Source: Struthio camelus
Taxonomy: Eukaryota; Chordata; Aves; Struthioniformes; Struthionidae
DNA length: 64,000 bases
Assembly: GCF_040807025.1 (NCBI RefSeq)
Contig: NC_090944.1
Location: 114,956,238-115,020,237, forward strand
Direction: 5' to 3'
Both the position numbers and the translations under genes were made by a program. Below the pieces are notes generated by a model. That model searched no databases, was not told where the DNA came from, and saw nothing but the letters and a program-made list of their open reading frames with translations. Below are positions 5,618 to 60,300 of the stretch, piece after piece; position 1 is the first letter of the stretch; each line of letters opens with the position of its first letter.

Positions 5618-6754
5618 TACTCTTTCTGGGAATGCAATTCACACATGATTACTCAAAAGATGAGCTTCGAGAACACTGAAAGCTTCCTTTGCACAACTCG
5701 TGATTTCTTTGTGTTTGTCATTTGGCTTGCATCAGTGAATCCCACACAATGCATCATTTCTGATAGGAATGGCCAGAAGTGCTTATATATCAATCCACAC
5801 TGTCTGCTAGTCAGGGGATGTTTTGGCCACACCTCTCTTCCGTGCAGACCTTTGGATTTTTCCTTTTGTAATATGAAATGCTGACTTCTATTTTCTTGGC
5901 AATGGATAAACTCTGAATACGACAGAGCTATTTTTAGCCATCCACCAACATATTAAGAACAAAAAAATAATAATTTAGAATGCCTACATATAAGCTTATA
6001 CACAGCAGATAAAGTTTTAGATAACTAAGAAATTCAAATTGTTTTTACAGGCTCTCATGACTGGGAAGCTAACTGCTTGTTTTGCGCTGAGCAAAGTAAA
6101 AAATACCTTCCTATCTGTTTTAAATAGTCTCTCCTTTCATCACCTCTATCAGACAAAAAAACTTTGTCTTTGTTTACTAGGTGTCTTGTCCTCTTCAAGT
6201 GCTGAGAGGATTGATAAAAGCTAACCGGTTCCAGCATTTAAGATACAGTGCATGACACAATTACCATCTGTGTATTAATGTACTTCAAGGTGATTAATTT
6301 TATTTTCTTCCAGCTCAGTGAAAAAGAGCACAGTAAGGTAAAAGGGGCGTTTGATTCCCAATAAGTGTTTTCTCCTGCATCAATATTTTTCTTTGACCTT
6401 AAGACAGTTTCATTTTTGATTAATTTTCAGGTAAACATTTTGAGGCAGACCTAAATTGAAACACCAGAGATCTGCTCAAAATGACCTGTGTACCCGTGTA
6501 GAAACCCTGCCCTTTCTGCTTCTGTGGCTCAGAGTCAGTTATTTGCAGGTGTGTGTGCCAACAGACTCACCCAGAGGGCAGAGACAGTTATACCAAGGCC
6601 TGCGACAGCCAGGGGTGGCTCTAGCCTTCATTTGCTAATTCTTATGATGTACCTTAAAAGCACATGGCTGAAGAAGAACCGGAATTTTATTGACAGTTCT
6701 GTCGCTGACTGGCTCTTTTTTGCCTTGAGCATATTATTTCCTTTAGGCAGGGGG
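5618..6754. other. intergenic sequence between hAT relic and CpG island
   Basis: No gene or identifiable repeat. A CTCF-like core (cccagagggcag) occurs at about 6570-6581, unverified. Confidence 0.6.
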
Positions 6755-7700
6755 CCTCTGCGGGAAGTGCTGGCCGCGGTCACCCCGTGAGAGCACGGGC
6801 TCCTTCCGAAGCAAGCAGGTCCCTCTGCAAACATGGGGAAAAGGAGAGCCTGCGGGGACCCAGCTCGGTCAGATGGGCATGACAGTCTGCCGGGAATCCT
6901 CCCCTTTCCCTCCATAGCGACAGCAGTGCCACAACCCCTTCATTTTCGGGCCTGGCGTTCGGAGACGCCAAGCGCTCCTGCCCCTGCCGAATGAAGGCCT
7001 CCCTGAACCAGGCCCGGCTCCACGGCCCCGCTCGGAGGCCCACCAAAATAATTCGTGCCGTAGCCAGTAGATGTCAGCAAGTGATAACAAAACGCAGGCC
7101 GAGCCTGGCGGCAGGTGCTGGCCACAGATTTGGGGTGGCCTGCACCCGGCACGCACGGAGGCCGCGGCGCTGTGGGGGCGCGCTGGCCCTGCCTGCGCGG
7201 GGAGCGCGCTTCCCCGCGAAGCCCAGCCCGCACCAAAATACACCCGGAGAGAGGCGCCCCGAGGCCAGGCCGCCCCGAGCCGCCCTGGAGCGGAGCACCG
7301 AGCCACGAGTTGTCTGTTGCCAGCCCAAATCGCTAGCTCTCCCCCAAGACCTCCGCCGTGCCTTGACGTGGCGGCGGCTCCAGCGGAGGTGTCGCGCGGT
7401 GTTGACCTGACCGGGGAAAGGGGGAAGGGCTGCCCGGCAGGCAGATGGGCCAGGCCCGGTTCAGACAGCACGGCTCCATCTCCAGCAGTAAGCTACCCGG
7501 GCCCAGCACCGCTCCGCGGCGCGGGAGCCAACAGGCCTGGAGGAGCCGGTGTCCTCCGCACTAATAACCTCCTTGACTCTCCGAAACACCCAAGTGGCTG
7601 GCTGGGAACGGTCCTGGCCCCACTGCGTCTTGAGCGAGGGGCTGTTTGGAGGCGTACGAGCTGGCTCAGGGCAAGACTGCGTCAGGGGCAGCACTAATAA
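6755..7700. promoter_or_regulatory. orphan CpG island
   Basis: About 950 bases dense in CpG and G+C inside AT-rich surroundings, with the densest part at about 7140-7420. Long frames on both strands, including an ATG-started + frame 7071-7697 (208 codons), follow from the high GC, and none resembles a known protein. It lies 25-26 kb upstream of the SMYD2 promoter. It may be the promoter of a non-coding RNA, a distal alternative promoter, or an island-type enhancer; the sequence does not decide. Confidence 0.7.
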
Positions 7701-48300: not shown

Positions 48301-51300
48301 TTAGGCTTCTTGTGGGCCAAGCATAGTGCAGTGGTTGTGGGACTGGCTTCATACACAAAAGGCTGCTGGTATGAGACCCTATGAAAGCAGAACTCCTTGT
48401 TCAGACTTTAAGCTTATGGAAATCCTTGATGGTCAGATGGTAATTGTGTTCAACCTTCCTTACAAAGAGAAAACTTCAGAGAATTGGGAAGAGCAGTCTG
48501 AATCTTTATCTAATCTGTGACTTTTGAATGCAATCAGGTAGTCTAGAGAGGTGAAAGAAAGGCAGGATTTCTTGTTAGATAGCTTCTGAAATTTGTCACC
48601 TCTTTCTCTCACCTGATTTTCATACACATCTAAATTGAGTATATTGTAATGGATGGAATGCTAAAAGTGATGTTTCCTTCTTTTTCTCCTTTATTCCAAA
48701 ATAAGTTCATTTTAAACTTGTGCTTCTGAATAAAAAGTTAAATTGATTTTTCTTTTTCTTTTTTTTTTGAGAAGTGGATAAATGCTAACTGCAGTGACAT
48801 AAGCTGAAATGGCACCACCTTTTTCGTAATAGCCTGTCATCTACCAATAAGAAGGCATAGTCACTGTTAGCTTAATACAGATGTAAACTGTTATTCTGTA
48901 AGTGAATGATTCTTTCGCATGTTCCATTGCCCATCATCCATTCAGTTGTTCATAATTATACCTTTTCCTTCAATAAAAAGTTCTTGTTTTGAAGACTTTA
49001 TAATTTATATTTGTCAAAGAGATACTTTAAAGAAGTCAGGGTGTGCAGGTTCCTGTGGTGTTTCTGAATATTTTTCTGAATATTTTTCTGAATATTTTTC
49101 TGAATATTTTTCTGAATATTTTTCTGAATATTTTTCTGAATATTTTTCTGAATATTTTTCTGAATATTTTTCTGAATATTTTTCTGAATATTTTTCTGAA
49201 TATTTTTCTGAATATTTTTCTGAATATTTTTCTGAATATTTTTCTGAATATTTTTCTGAATATTTTTCTGAATATTTTTGTTAGAATGTAGCCAGAATTC
49301 CCAAAGATTAAGTTGTCTTGTCTAAAATGACTTTCCCTTTATGTCCTGTCCTGGAGCGGTTCCACCAGATCACAATACTTTTACTGCCTTCTGTGAGCTG
49401 CTGACTCCCAGATCTGATATTCTATTCAGTTTTTTCTCTGGGTTTCTAATGTCGCTTTTAGACCTCAGCTTAAAGTCGTCATGACCGTAAGGGAGCTATT
49501 TACTACTGTGGGCATTGCAGTTGTTTGACCTAAAATCTTGAAAGGTCATCTGGATGATCCTCAAAAGTTTTTTTTACAGGACACAACCTTTTGAAGTTTC
49601 GACTCCAGCATGAAGCCTTTCTGGAAGAAAGGAAGACGTATCTATACATGATTTATACAAACACGTTCCCTAATAATTAACTAACTTGAGCAAAAAACGA
49701 TAGTGTGGATACGCTGTTGTTGTTCTGTTTTGCTCGAACGCTTACTCTGACCTCCTGGTGCCTGCTTTGCTTCTTCATTTGGCGTTCTTTCTCCTGGTGG
49801 CTCAGGGAAATGGTTTGGGACTTGAGCATCTCTGATTCCTTGCTTACTGCTCTGTAAGGTCTGGGTGTGGTGTTGCATCCTACTCAACATAGCTAAGATA
49901 TAACTGGTCCCTTTGAATGGATCAAAGATTTTTGTCCAAACCATCCTTGTCTTTCTCTGCTCTCTTGCCTGGCTGTTTGCATCCTTATGCTCTCTTTTGT
50001 CTCTATGGAACATACCTCTTCAGACAGGCACTCTTCCACCTCCGTCTCACCTTGTCATACTGTTCAAACAGTTTGTCTTGTCTGAGGAACCAGAGTCTCA
50101 TCCCTTCCTTGAAGAGCTTATATAATTTTGTGCTTCCCTCTGCACCTTTGCTCTGTTCCACCATTGAAAACAACCTTAAGCTCTAGTTCTCTCTTATGTC
50201 TCTCTACTTCTTCCATGCTGCCTTTGTTAGTCATGCATTCCTCTGGTGAAACCGGAGGTGTCTCATCCCTTCTAATTCTTCCTCGTGTCGTTTCTGGTAT
50301 GATGCATTCAAGAAGTGGGTTGTCTCTGACTTGGCAGAGGGGAGTTGATGATAACTCGCTACATATTTTTAAATATTTTCCTGTGATTCAGAAGCATCAA
50401 GCTGTTCTCCGTGTCTCAGCCTTTGTAGCCTTATGTTCTTACTTGCTTTTGATGTAATCATTCCCTTCTATTGTTTTTGTGTTCAGCAATTACATTTTGG
50501 TTTTGGTTCAGGTGTGCTAGTGCAGTAGCATGTTCATCTGGAGAGTCAAGGAGCCTTTGGATGCTATCTTGCTTAAAATAGCAAAATAAAGATCAAGTAA
50601 TGATATTGAAGTTGCTGGTGAGTGAGTCGCAGAAACAGGACACTTTTCATAACTATGAACTCATCCTGAACAGTTCACATGAGAGGGGTGGGTTTGGGCA
50701 GTATCTAGGCATTTCAGAACTGCATTCCAGCTTGTGGGGCATAAAATTGTTCGTAGTGTTTGTCATCAACTCTTACCCTTCCAGAACAAGTACTTGCACT
50801 GTATTTTATTGACCGTCCTGTGTTCATTATAGCTTCAACTTGCTCGTGTGACAGTAGATGCTTTAATGCTTTCTGGTACTTTTGTGACTATTCTGATGAT
50901 TGTAGGGAGATGTTGGTGAAGATGGAGAGAGTCGTCTTTGTGTTGGCATGAATGTGAGTTGCAGTAGAAGTGGAATAAGGAATGGAATAAAGTATTGAGG
51001 TGCATTTTGGTCACTACAGATCAAACCAAATGAAAAAAGGCTGAAACTCATGTAAGATTCCTTTGGGTTTAGTTGAAGATAAAACAGGAAAAGATTTTAA
51101 AACCTGCTTGACTCTGTTCTTTAACAGAGTGTATAAACAAGTTCTTTTTATCCTGAACTAGTGTTTAAATTAGGATTGCACTTTCTCACACACTGTCCTT
51201 TTTCTTTTGATATCTTTTATTCTATGTCGATGTGAGGTTCAAGTCTTTCTCGCTCCCAGTGTTGTTCTTGCATGTGCTGTGGTTGTAGTTGATATGTGCA

Positions 51301-57300: not shown

Positions 57301-60300
57301 AAATATAAGAGTAAATGGAGCTGTCCAGCAGAAAGTCAGTGTATAATAAAGAAATGTGTGGAAATGGTCTTTTTTGTTTAGATATGGAGGATACCATTCT
57401 GTCTTTAATATCTTCCCATTTTCCATTGAGGTATCATTTGTTGGTAGGCCTAAAGTATCTTAAAATTAAATTTATTTTAATCCCTGATCTCCTGGAAGCA
57501 ATGAAACTTCCTGTGTAAAACTGCTTTCATCACAAAATTGGAAAGCTCTTGGACCTTCCATGAGAGAGAGGGACTTCATGAAACTGGAGAACGGCAAGTG
57601 AACTGGAAGGCAGAGGATTTTAGGATTTCCAGCCAAGGCTTTAGAGAAAAATTGCAAGGGCACATTCTACCTTTGTTCTTATAGTCTTTGAAGAGTTGAG
57701 GTTCCCATCTATGTCTTTTTATTAGAGTAATTTTGTGTAGCAGGTGCATCGTTATTTGTTGGACCTGGAACCTGCATTTATAACTTCATAACATTTTAGC
57801 GTTGTGTTTCCCTTAGGATAAAGAGAAACTGGAAATCCGCAAGCTGAATGATCCTCCATCAGCAGAGGCGGTATGGGACATGATCAAATATGCCAGGAAT
57901 GTGATTGAGGAATTCAGGAGAGCAAAACACTACAAATATATCCTTTGTCTCACGCTGACTCCAGTGGCTTGCTGTGTGACCTAAAAATCTTATCTGGTGA
58001 CTTGTGTCAAAAGTACCTGGGGGGGAAAAATGTTATGGCCATTAGAATTTGGAATGTGCCTCTGTCCCTTTTGTGTCCAAACTCTGAAGAGTTTTCCCTG
58101 AGAACAAATGGCAGTTTACCACTGCTAGTGTTGTGGGATTGGAAGACCCTAGGTTTGTTCCTTCCTCTTCGGTTTTAAATTTTTATCAGTAAGGCCTAAT
58201 ACTGTCTTCACAGGACAAGCCAGAGACAAGTATAAGTGTGAATGTGTGTGTATGTGGTTAGCGTGCGGTAGTATTGCCTGTTTTTGAGAGACTGCATGCT
58301 AGGCTGTGGCAGCAGCTGATGGTCACAGCCCTACCTGTTGTAACAGTGGTGCAGTGCAGGAAAAAAAAAGCAAGGTTCACTGGGCCAGAATTAGACCAGG
58401 CTATCTCATGCCTAATTCTGTACCCACTGCACACAGAGTTTCACTCCCCCTTCTTCTGACATCTCTGGACCAGCAGCAATTCATAATTTTTTTAATTTTT
58501 TATTTTTGAAATCCCAAAGCTAGGTTTGTAGAACAGAATGCCTTAGCTCTGGAGTTGTAGCATAGAAGTACTGATGCCATTTGAGAGGGGAGGACTTTTC
58601 AAGACCATTCTGAACAAGTGTAAGGCAAATCTTCTTTGGCAGTACCACATAGCTGTTTAATCGAAGACCATCTGTTTATTGCATTCCTTGACTTCTTCAT
58701 ACCTCCTACTGAATTGTTGGAGATTTGTGAGCTTAGTCTGGACAAGATGGGTGCAGTATTTGAAGATAGTAATGTTTATATGTTACACATGATGTATCAG
58801 GCCATGGGTGTCTGTCTTTACATGCAGGACTGGGAAGGTGCACTTCGTTACGGGCAAAAAATTATCAGACCATACAGGTAAATGTAAGACTTTTTACTGC
58901 TGTAGTTCAGTAATCTGAATAACTAAAACATGTTTGGGCAGAGATCACTTCTCTGGGTACATATTATATAAGCTTGCTGTCTATGACATCAGTACTCAGA
59001 AGGGAACGTTTAAGTCTTGGGACAGATTTTGTTAACATCACAACGTAGCCTGCAATGTGTAGCAAAAGGTGACTGTCTGAAATTCCTGCCTTGATCTCTC
59101 AAAATAAGTTTTACCATCTTGGTGGGTGCTGTGACAGTTCTGCTTAGCTAGGTAAATACTTTTTTTTTTTTTTAAATATCCTGCTAATAGTTTTCCAAAA
59201 CAGGGCTTTGAAGTGCATCTGCAGTCAGTATTTTGTTCAAGGTAAGTGAGGCAAAGCCCAGGTTGTTACTGTCGACCCCCCAGCCGGTCCTGTCTCTGCA
59301 GTAGCACAGCAGTCACGATTGCAGGGAAGCAGAGCCGTGTCCCAGGGCTGGGGCTGAGCAGCAGAGGGAGCTGGAGCTAAGCGCAGCTCCTGCCTTGGAG
59401 GCTAAGTCTGTTGGTGCCCTGACGTCCTTGATCTCCACCACCCTCGAGCTCGTGGTGTGGGGGTGAGCGCAGGCTGAAGCCCTCACTCGGGGCAAGGCAG
59501 CACACAGCCGCAGGAAAAATTAGTATTCTTTGTTGGTTTTTTTCGGGGGAGAGGGGGAGGAGTGCCTTTAAAGCAGTGACCTTGTTCATTACAGCCAGCC
59601 AGTTACTCACTGAATCCAATCCTGCTGTGAGTCTTCCAAGCAAACTCTCTTCTTGAGACGTGGCTTTCTTTCCAGACGGGCTGGGGGGAAGCACAAGCGA
59701 AGCTCTCCCTTCAGAGCGGATGCCAACGTCAAGTCACAGATCGCTTGGCAGAGAGCAGTGATACAGAGAACGTGCCAACACGCTCCCCCTGGGAGCTCAG
59801 TACTATTTATCATCCCTGGGCCTTGCCCAGCTCCTCTGGCTCCGAGCCTGGCATTCCAGGTCAGCTCTGCTGAACCAGGCTCTGTTAGTTCAGCGTGCTG
59901 CAAGTACAGAATAGCATGTGCGCTATGCATGCCGCCAAGAGCCCTTTGCTTTCCATTAAAGGCTGACTGTTGTGGAAGCAGCAAAGTTACTTTTGTGGGT
60001 GTAGAGTGGCTCAGAAAACTAGTAACAATGCAATCTCTTTCTTTAGTTGGCTGGATTAAAACTAGTGACAGAAAGTCATTGCCATCTGACAGCTGTTCAG
60101 AGGCATATGGTAGTTTCGGTTCAATTCCCAGTTGACAGGCATCCCCATCACAGAAACAATTGGCGCTGGCTTTTGGCAGGCAGAGCAGAGGGGACGAGCG
60201 CTGAATGGGCAGGGGCAGCAAGAGCCAACCTCATGCCCCTCAAGAGGGGACAGGGCTGGGAAAATGCTATGAAACTGCAGGGTTTGATAAAGCTGCATTT

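Follow-up and report, generated by a model that had tools for sequence, protein, structure and literature searches.

A U12-type AT-AC Intron in the Ostrich SMYD2 Gene and Its Counterpart at the Homologous Position of SMYD3

RESULTS

The SMYD2 Gene of the Ostrich Window

The window, by which is meant the whole stretch of 64,000 nucleotides of ostrich (Struthio camelus) DNA that was analyzed, contains on its forward strand the complete coding region of SMYD2 (33123–62566), which is divided by 11 introns into 12 exons and encodes 438 amino acids. A 40-residue stretch encoded by exon 9 matched 13 solved sequences, 12 of which are named SMYD2 or SET and MYND domain-containing protein 2. In the gene model, this exon (57817–57937, forward strand) ends in CACTACAAAT and matches residues 273–312 of the solved SMYD2 chains, and exon 10 (58703–58877, same strand) starts with CTCCTACTGAATTG. 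Splice sites were assigned by scoring donor/acceptor pairs near each exon edge (up to 90 nt from the anchors and no more than 6 residues off the expected length) against the SMYD2 protein, with GT-AG, GC-AG, and AT-AC as the types compared. GT-AG was the best of these three types in 10 of the 11 introns, as had been stated in a preliminary description of the sequence; in introns 7 and 11, a pair of no known splice type outscored GT-AG by 1 and 3 points, respectively. Intron 5 holds a perfect 12-base tandem repeat, TTTCTGAATATT, in 18.2 copies (49061–49279). About 25 kb upstream of SMYD2, long open frames overlap on both strands at 6485–7697, a stretch that is possibly a G+C-rich promoter region.

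Ends and Splice Signals of Intron 9

Introns of the U12 type have the donor consensus RTATCCTTT and the branch site consensus TTCCTTRAY near the 3′ end. The ninth of the 11 SMYD2 introns (57938–58702, forward strand, 765 nt, phase 1), which is the only one in the gene not modeled as GT-AG, carries both: the donor ATATCCTTT (57938–57946) and the branch site TTCCTTGAC (58684–58692) each agree with the consensus at nine of nine positions, the branch A (58691) precedes the final base of the intron (58702) by 11 nt, and the 3′ splice site is AC (58701–58702). Rereading of the sequence bore out the preliminary description in these respects, namely the coordinates, the perfect U12 donor, the distance of the branch A from the end, and the terminal AC. 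The intron splits the codon for Ser318 of the 438-residue window protein, and the preceding lysine corresponds to residue 312 in the solved SMYD2 chains. In the protein-fit scoring, the AT-AC pair was the highest among all dinucleotide pairs, and the GT-AG and GC-AG pairs that deviated by no more than 6 residues from the length expected all fell short of it by 18 points or more. The donors of the other ten introns agree with the U12 consensus at only 3–5 of the 9 positions and their best branch-like sites at 4–8, the highest value being that of intron 7, where a site with 8 of 9 matches lies 22 nt from the end but the donor is an ordinary one (3 of 9). Donors resembling RTATCCTTT also occur in rows of Table 1 of the IAOD paper (PMC7367187).

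AT-AC ends are also found in a rare class of introns that is spliced by the major (U2) spliceosome and has been described in sodium channel genes (PMC2831892), and such splicing was considered as an alternative for intron 9. However, the sodium channel examples carry G at position +5 (PMC2831892), the feature by which U2-type AT-AC introns are recognized, whereas intron 9 has C at this position, a donor that is U12-like in all nine bases, and a 9/9 U12 branch site whose A is 11 nt from the end, which makes removal by the major spliceosome extremely improbable.

It should be recognized that in a sequence of 64 kb the motifs by themselves are too common to prove an intron. Perfect matches to RTATCCTTT occur three times in the whole window (1.22 expected), a number reached in 11 of 100 shuffles, and perfect matches to TTCCTTRAY also three times (4.23 expected); this corresponds to 3 of the 15,620 AT or GT sites on both strands and 3 of 127,982 positions, respectively. 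The combination of a perfect AT donor, a perfect branch site, and AC appeared in 20 of 400 windows of 64 kb simulated with a first-order Markov model. A loose pattern applied to the whole genome gave no signal (52 forward and 37 reverse matches; reversed control, 65 and 75). The assignment of intron 9 therefore stands on the exact coincidence of the perfect motifs with a junction that is fixed independently by the protein.

GT-AG Alternatives and Public Record P0086

Over a range wider than that used for scoring, 77 in-frame, stop-free pairs (32 GT-AG and 45 GC-AG) are available near junction 9. None of them preserves the SMYD2 protein, and a GT-AG or GC-AG intron at this junction was rejected on that ground. 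One of them, an intron from 57947 to 58666 on the forward strand, nevertheless deserves consideration, since it is in frame, has no stops, adds 15 residues, and is the only one of the 77 whose translation is contained in a public ostrich record, P0086; this connection is through the translation and not through the exon coordinates of the record. P0086 thus implies splicing by the major spliceosome from a donor after 57946 to an acceptor at 58666, with 16 residues in place of Ser318. Such an intron is very improbable. Its donor, GTCTCACG, is poor, and P0086 is a partial sequence, without the first 83 residues; 354 of its 355 aligned residues are identical to those of the window protein, and the single mismatch, apart from the 15-residue insert, is Ser318 itself. 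Furthermore, in the comparison of public proteins described below, no uniform insert is seen at this junction: the 23 insertion rows gain anywhere from 1 to 26 residues, of differing sequence, whereas in 90 of the best 120 representatives Lys-Ser/Thr-Pro is joined cleanly.

Public SMYD2 Proteins at Junction 9

A search with the window SMYD2 found 487 proteins, and the best 120 representatives of 90% clusters were aligned. At junction 9, 90 of these 120 show no disturbance, whereas 23 carry insertions and 7 have deletions or missing residues, giving 30 disturbed in all; at the other ten junctions of the same 120 sequences, the numbers are 0–4 insertions, 1–20 deletions or missing residues, and 5–21 disturbed records for each junction. 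Because each record stands for a 90% cluster, and erroneous models may cluster separately, the 30 of 120 should not be read as a proportion of species. Deletions or missing residues are most frequent at junctions 5 and 7 (20 of the best 120 in each case), and several of the SMYD2 isoforms among the listed matches have 379 or 399 amino acids; the losses at these two junctions are perhaps exon-skipping isoforms.

In 24 of the 120 sequences, all within the disturbed 30, the lysine that ends exon 9 is followed by YIL (14 records), NIL (9 records), or YNL (1 record, from mouse), which are the translations of T|ATATCCTT, A|ATATCCTT, and T|ATAACCTT, respectively, that is, of an AT donor that was left unspliced. 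A stretch of the form LD..PP, such as would arise if the branch site and the AC end were translated, is present in 4 of the 120, and three of these four belong to the 24. The remaining six disturbed records, which lack read-through residues, could represent isoforms or incomplete models. Judged by their names, the 24 records with read-through belong to 13 birds, seven ray-finned fishes (three sturgeons, three fishes of the bonytongue group, and an eel), and one each of lizard, mouse, frog, and lungfish. This distribution in protein models suggests that the AT donor has been in place since before the divergence of these lineages. The YNL of the mouse record is consistent with the mouse donor listed in PMC7367187, ATAACCTTT.

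The Homologous Position in SMYD3 and SMYD1

The preliminary description had proposed SMYD1 and SMYD3 for comparison, and in the ostrich the two genes differ at the position concerned. The region of SMYD3 that extends from the donor of the exon 9 equivalent to the acceptor of the exon 10 equivalent is on the contig of the window (C3:99683000–99692900, reverse strand). The best joining pair is GT-AG, with a donor, GTATCCTTT, that agrees with the U12 consensus at all nine positions and a branch-like site, TTCTTTAAC, with 8 of 9 matches, 16 nt from the end. By protein score alone, the runner-up, an AT-AG pair whose donor has only 2 of 9 matches, is just 2 points lower (277 versus 279), so that the choice of the exact SMYD3 model depends on the splice signals and on agreement with the public SMYD3 protein of the ostrich (P0184), which contains the 70 joined residues of the model exactly. 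In an ungapped alignment of the ostrich proteins, the split codon is located eight residues before a conserved cysteine, in phase 1, in both SMYD2 and SMYD3. The SMYD3 intron thus shares position, phase, and a perfect U12 donor with SMYD2 intron 9 but differs in its GT-AG ends and in its branch-like site, which is imperfect and more distant from the 3′ end. SMYD1, by contrast, has a U2-like intron with a GTGAGT donor and an AG end, in phase 0, 11 nt further downstream; in view of this offset and the different phase, a U12-to-U2 conversion in SMYD1 is not claimed.

Of the best 120 of 464 proteins found with SMYD3, 116 are clean at the corresponding junction, 2 have deletions, 1 has an insertion, and 1 is without the region, in a list that is richer in mammals than that for SMYD2. 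As far as the ostrich SMYD3 intron can stand for this type of junction, the result fits the view that it would be the AT-AC ends, and not the minor class as such, that mislead gene models.

Minor-spliceosome Components in the Ostrich Genome

The ostrich genome has one match each above the Rfam cut-off for U12, U6atac, U11, and U4atac and three matches for the CCDC84/CENATAC family, the latter inside 3 kb of a single contig. In the intron 9 branch site, all bases except the bulged A are able to pair with GUAAGGAA of the U12 snRNA of this genome, one of these eight pairs being G-U. Calculated duplex energies failed to set intron 9 apart from the ordinary introns and were dropped as evidence of intron class; they are used just to show that pairing is possible: the U6atac donor duplex of intron 9 (−6.5) is equaled by that of intron 11, its U11 donor duplex (−5.3) is surpassed by those of introns 1 and 3 and of the SMYD1 donor, and its U12 branch (tail) duplex (−8.9) ranks first among the 11, closely followed by that of intron 10 (−8.3).

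DISCUSSION

Intron 9 of ostrich SMYD2 is, with a probability that we estimate at about 0.97 from sequence comparison, the ostrich copy of a U12-type intron of the AT-AC subtype that is conserved in vertebrate SMYD2. The preliminary description had assigned the intron to the minor spliceosome, and this is upheld by the splice signals, by the genome matches to the four minor snRNAs, and by a publication on five mammals. The latter also settles the question raised there of whether the intron had been catalogued: Table 1 of PMC7367187 lists an SMYD2 intron as U12-type AT-AC, phase 1, in human, chimpanzee, dog, mouse, and rat, so that the human intron, with which a comparison had been suggested, is likewise of this type. 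The SMYD2 minor intron is therefore already known and the ostrich intron is an orthologous instance, as indicated by the same gene, the same phase, and the exon end ACAAAT, taken together with the matches to solved SMYD2 chains. Among the papers listed, which in the broadest comparison were 30 of 336, the other literature matches for SMYD2 with U12 terms were PMC5877747, a paper on FUS, and PMC4826394, a cancer paper on SMYD2 in which “U12” occurs once in the matching text. SMYD2 was absent from the 20 papers listed of 313 in a second broad set, and SMYD1 and SMYD3 were absent from the 15 listed of 257 in a third.

According to the same table, the ostrich and the five mammals also agree in the branch site TTCCTTGAC and in the terminal AC. 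The donor ATATCCTTT is common to ostrich, human, chimpanzee, and dog, whereas mouse and rat have ATAACCTTT; the exon ends in ACAAAT in ostrich, dog, mouse, and rat but in ATAAAT in human and chimpanzee; the last five intron bases are CATAC in ostrich versus AGCAC in the five mammals; and intron base +10 is G in ostrich versus A in human (PMC7367187). The class-conversion table of that paper has a macaque row in which the SMYD2 intron is given as U2-type with GC-AG ends, with a perfect U12 branch site still listed. This row may represent an annotation error of a kind similar to those in the protein records rather than a conversion of class.

The unusual ends of the intron seem to have misled many public gene models, including one for the ostrich. 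The preliminary description had predicted that gene finders restricted to GT-AG would lose Ser318 or add residues at this junction, and the disturbance of 30 of the best 120 clusters (of 487 proteins), 24 of them by read-through of the AT donor, together with the ostrich record P0086, bears out that prediction. In practical terms, the cost of this conserved minor intron is a disturbed sequence at junction 9 in a quarter of the listed clusters, and the errors by themselves indicate its presence across a range that extends from birds and mouse to ray-finned fishes.

SMYD2 and SMYD3 probably inherited one ancestral U12-type intron, whose position and phase have been kept while the ends came to differ, AT-AC in one and GT-AG in the other, with the SMYD1 gene having a U2-like intron 11 nt away. 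Switching between U12 subtypes is a known phenomenon (PMC2831892). If this is correct, two lysine methyltransferases would both depend on the minor spliceosome but would be unlike in their dependence on CENATAC, and the SMYD2 and SMYD3 introns would constitute a matched pair, at one homologous position, for what AT-AC ends do. No paper naming SMYD3 as a U12-type or minor-intron gene was found among the article texts, and the sole co-mention with “minor intron” was unrelated; SMYD3 may well be listed in IAOD, MIDB, U12DB, or supplements. Smyd3 is among the transcripts that are lowered by FUS depletion in section 12 of PMC6277851, a paper whose reference list includes a title on the regulation of minor introns by FUS; the effect on Smyd3 could be linked to its minor intron.

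From established minor-spliceosome biology, it would be expected that the intron 9 donor ATATCCTTT is recognized by U11 and later by U6atac, that U12 pairs with TTCCTTGAC leaving the branch A bulged, and that cleavage at AC would join ...AAAT to CTCCT..., restoring Ser318. Retention of the intron would introduce an in-frame TAA (57982–57984, forward strand) after 15 codons of intron sequence, and since two introns are located downstream of this stop, loss of the mRNA by nonsense-mediated decay would be likely.

This early stop raises the question of whether intron 9, U12-type in any case, also acts as a regulatory switch in which slow removal sets the level of SMYD2 protein according to minor-spliceosome capacity. 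As a class, A-type minor introns show reduced splicing efficiency, and depletion of CENATAC led to increased retention or to the use of alternative major splice sites in 92% of them (PMC8280824), which would be in line with such a role. However, minor introns can be spliced efficiently relative to their major neighbors (PMC6717393), and SMYD is absent from the main texts of the CENATAC paper (PMC8280824), the pan-eukaryotic survey, and the MIDB paper. A switch of this kind is accordingly regarded as possible but doubtful. With respect to its splicing factors, intron 9 is comparable with the A-type (AT-AN) introns that depend on CENATAC (PMC8280824): it has AT-AC ends and U12 signals in common with them, matches to the CCDC84/CENATAC family are present in the ostrich genome, and, being AT-AC, it should be CENATAC-dependent like other A-type minor introns.
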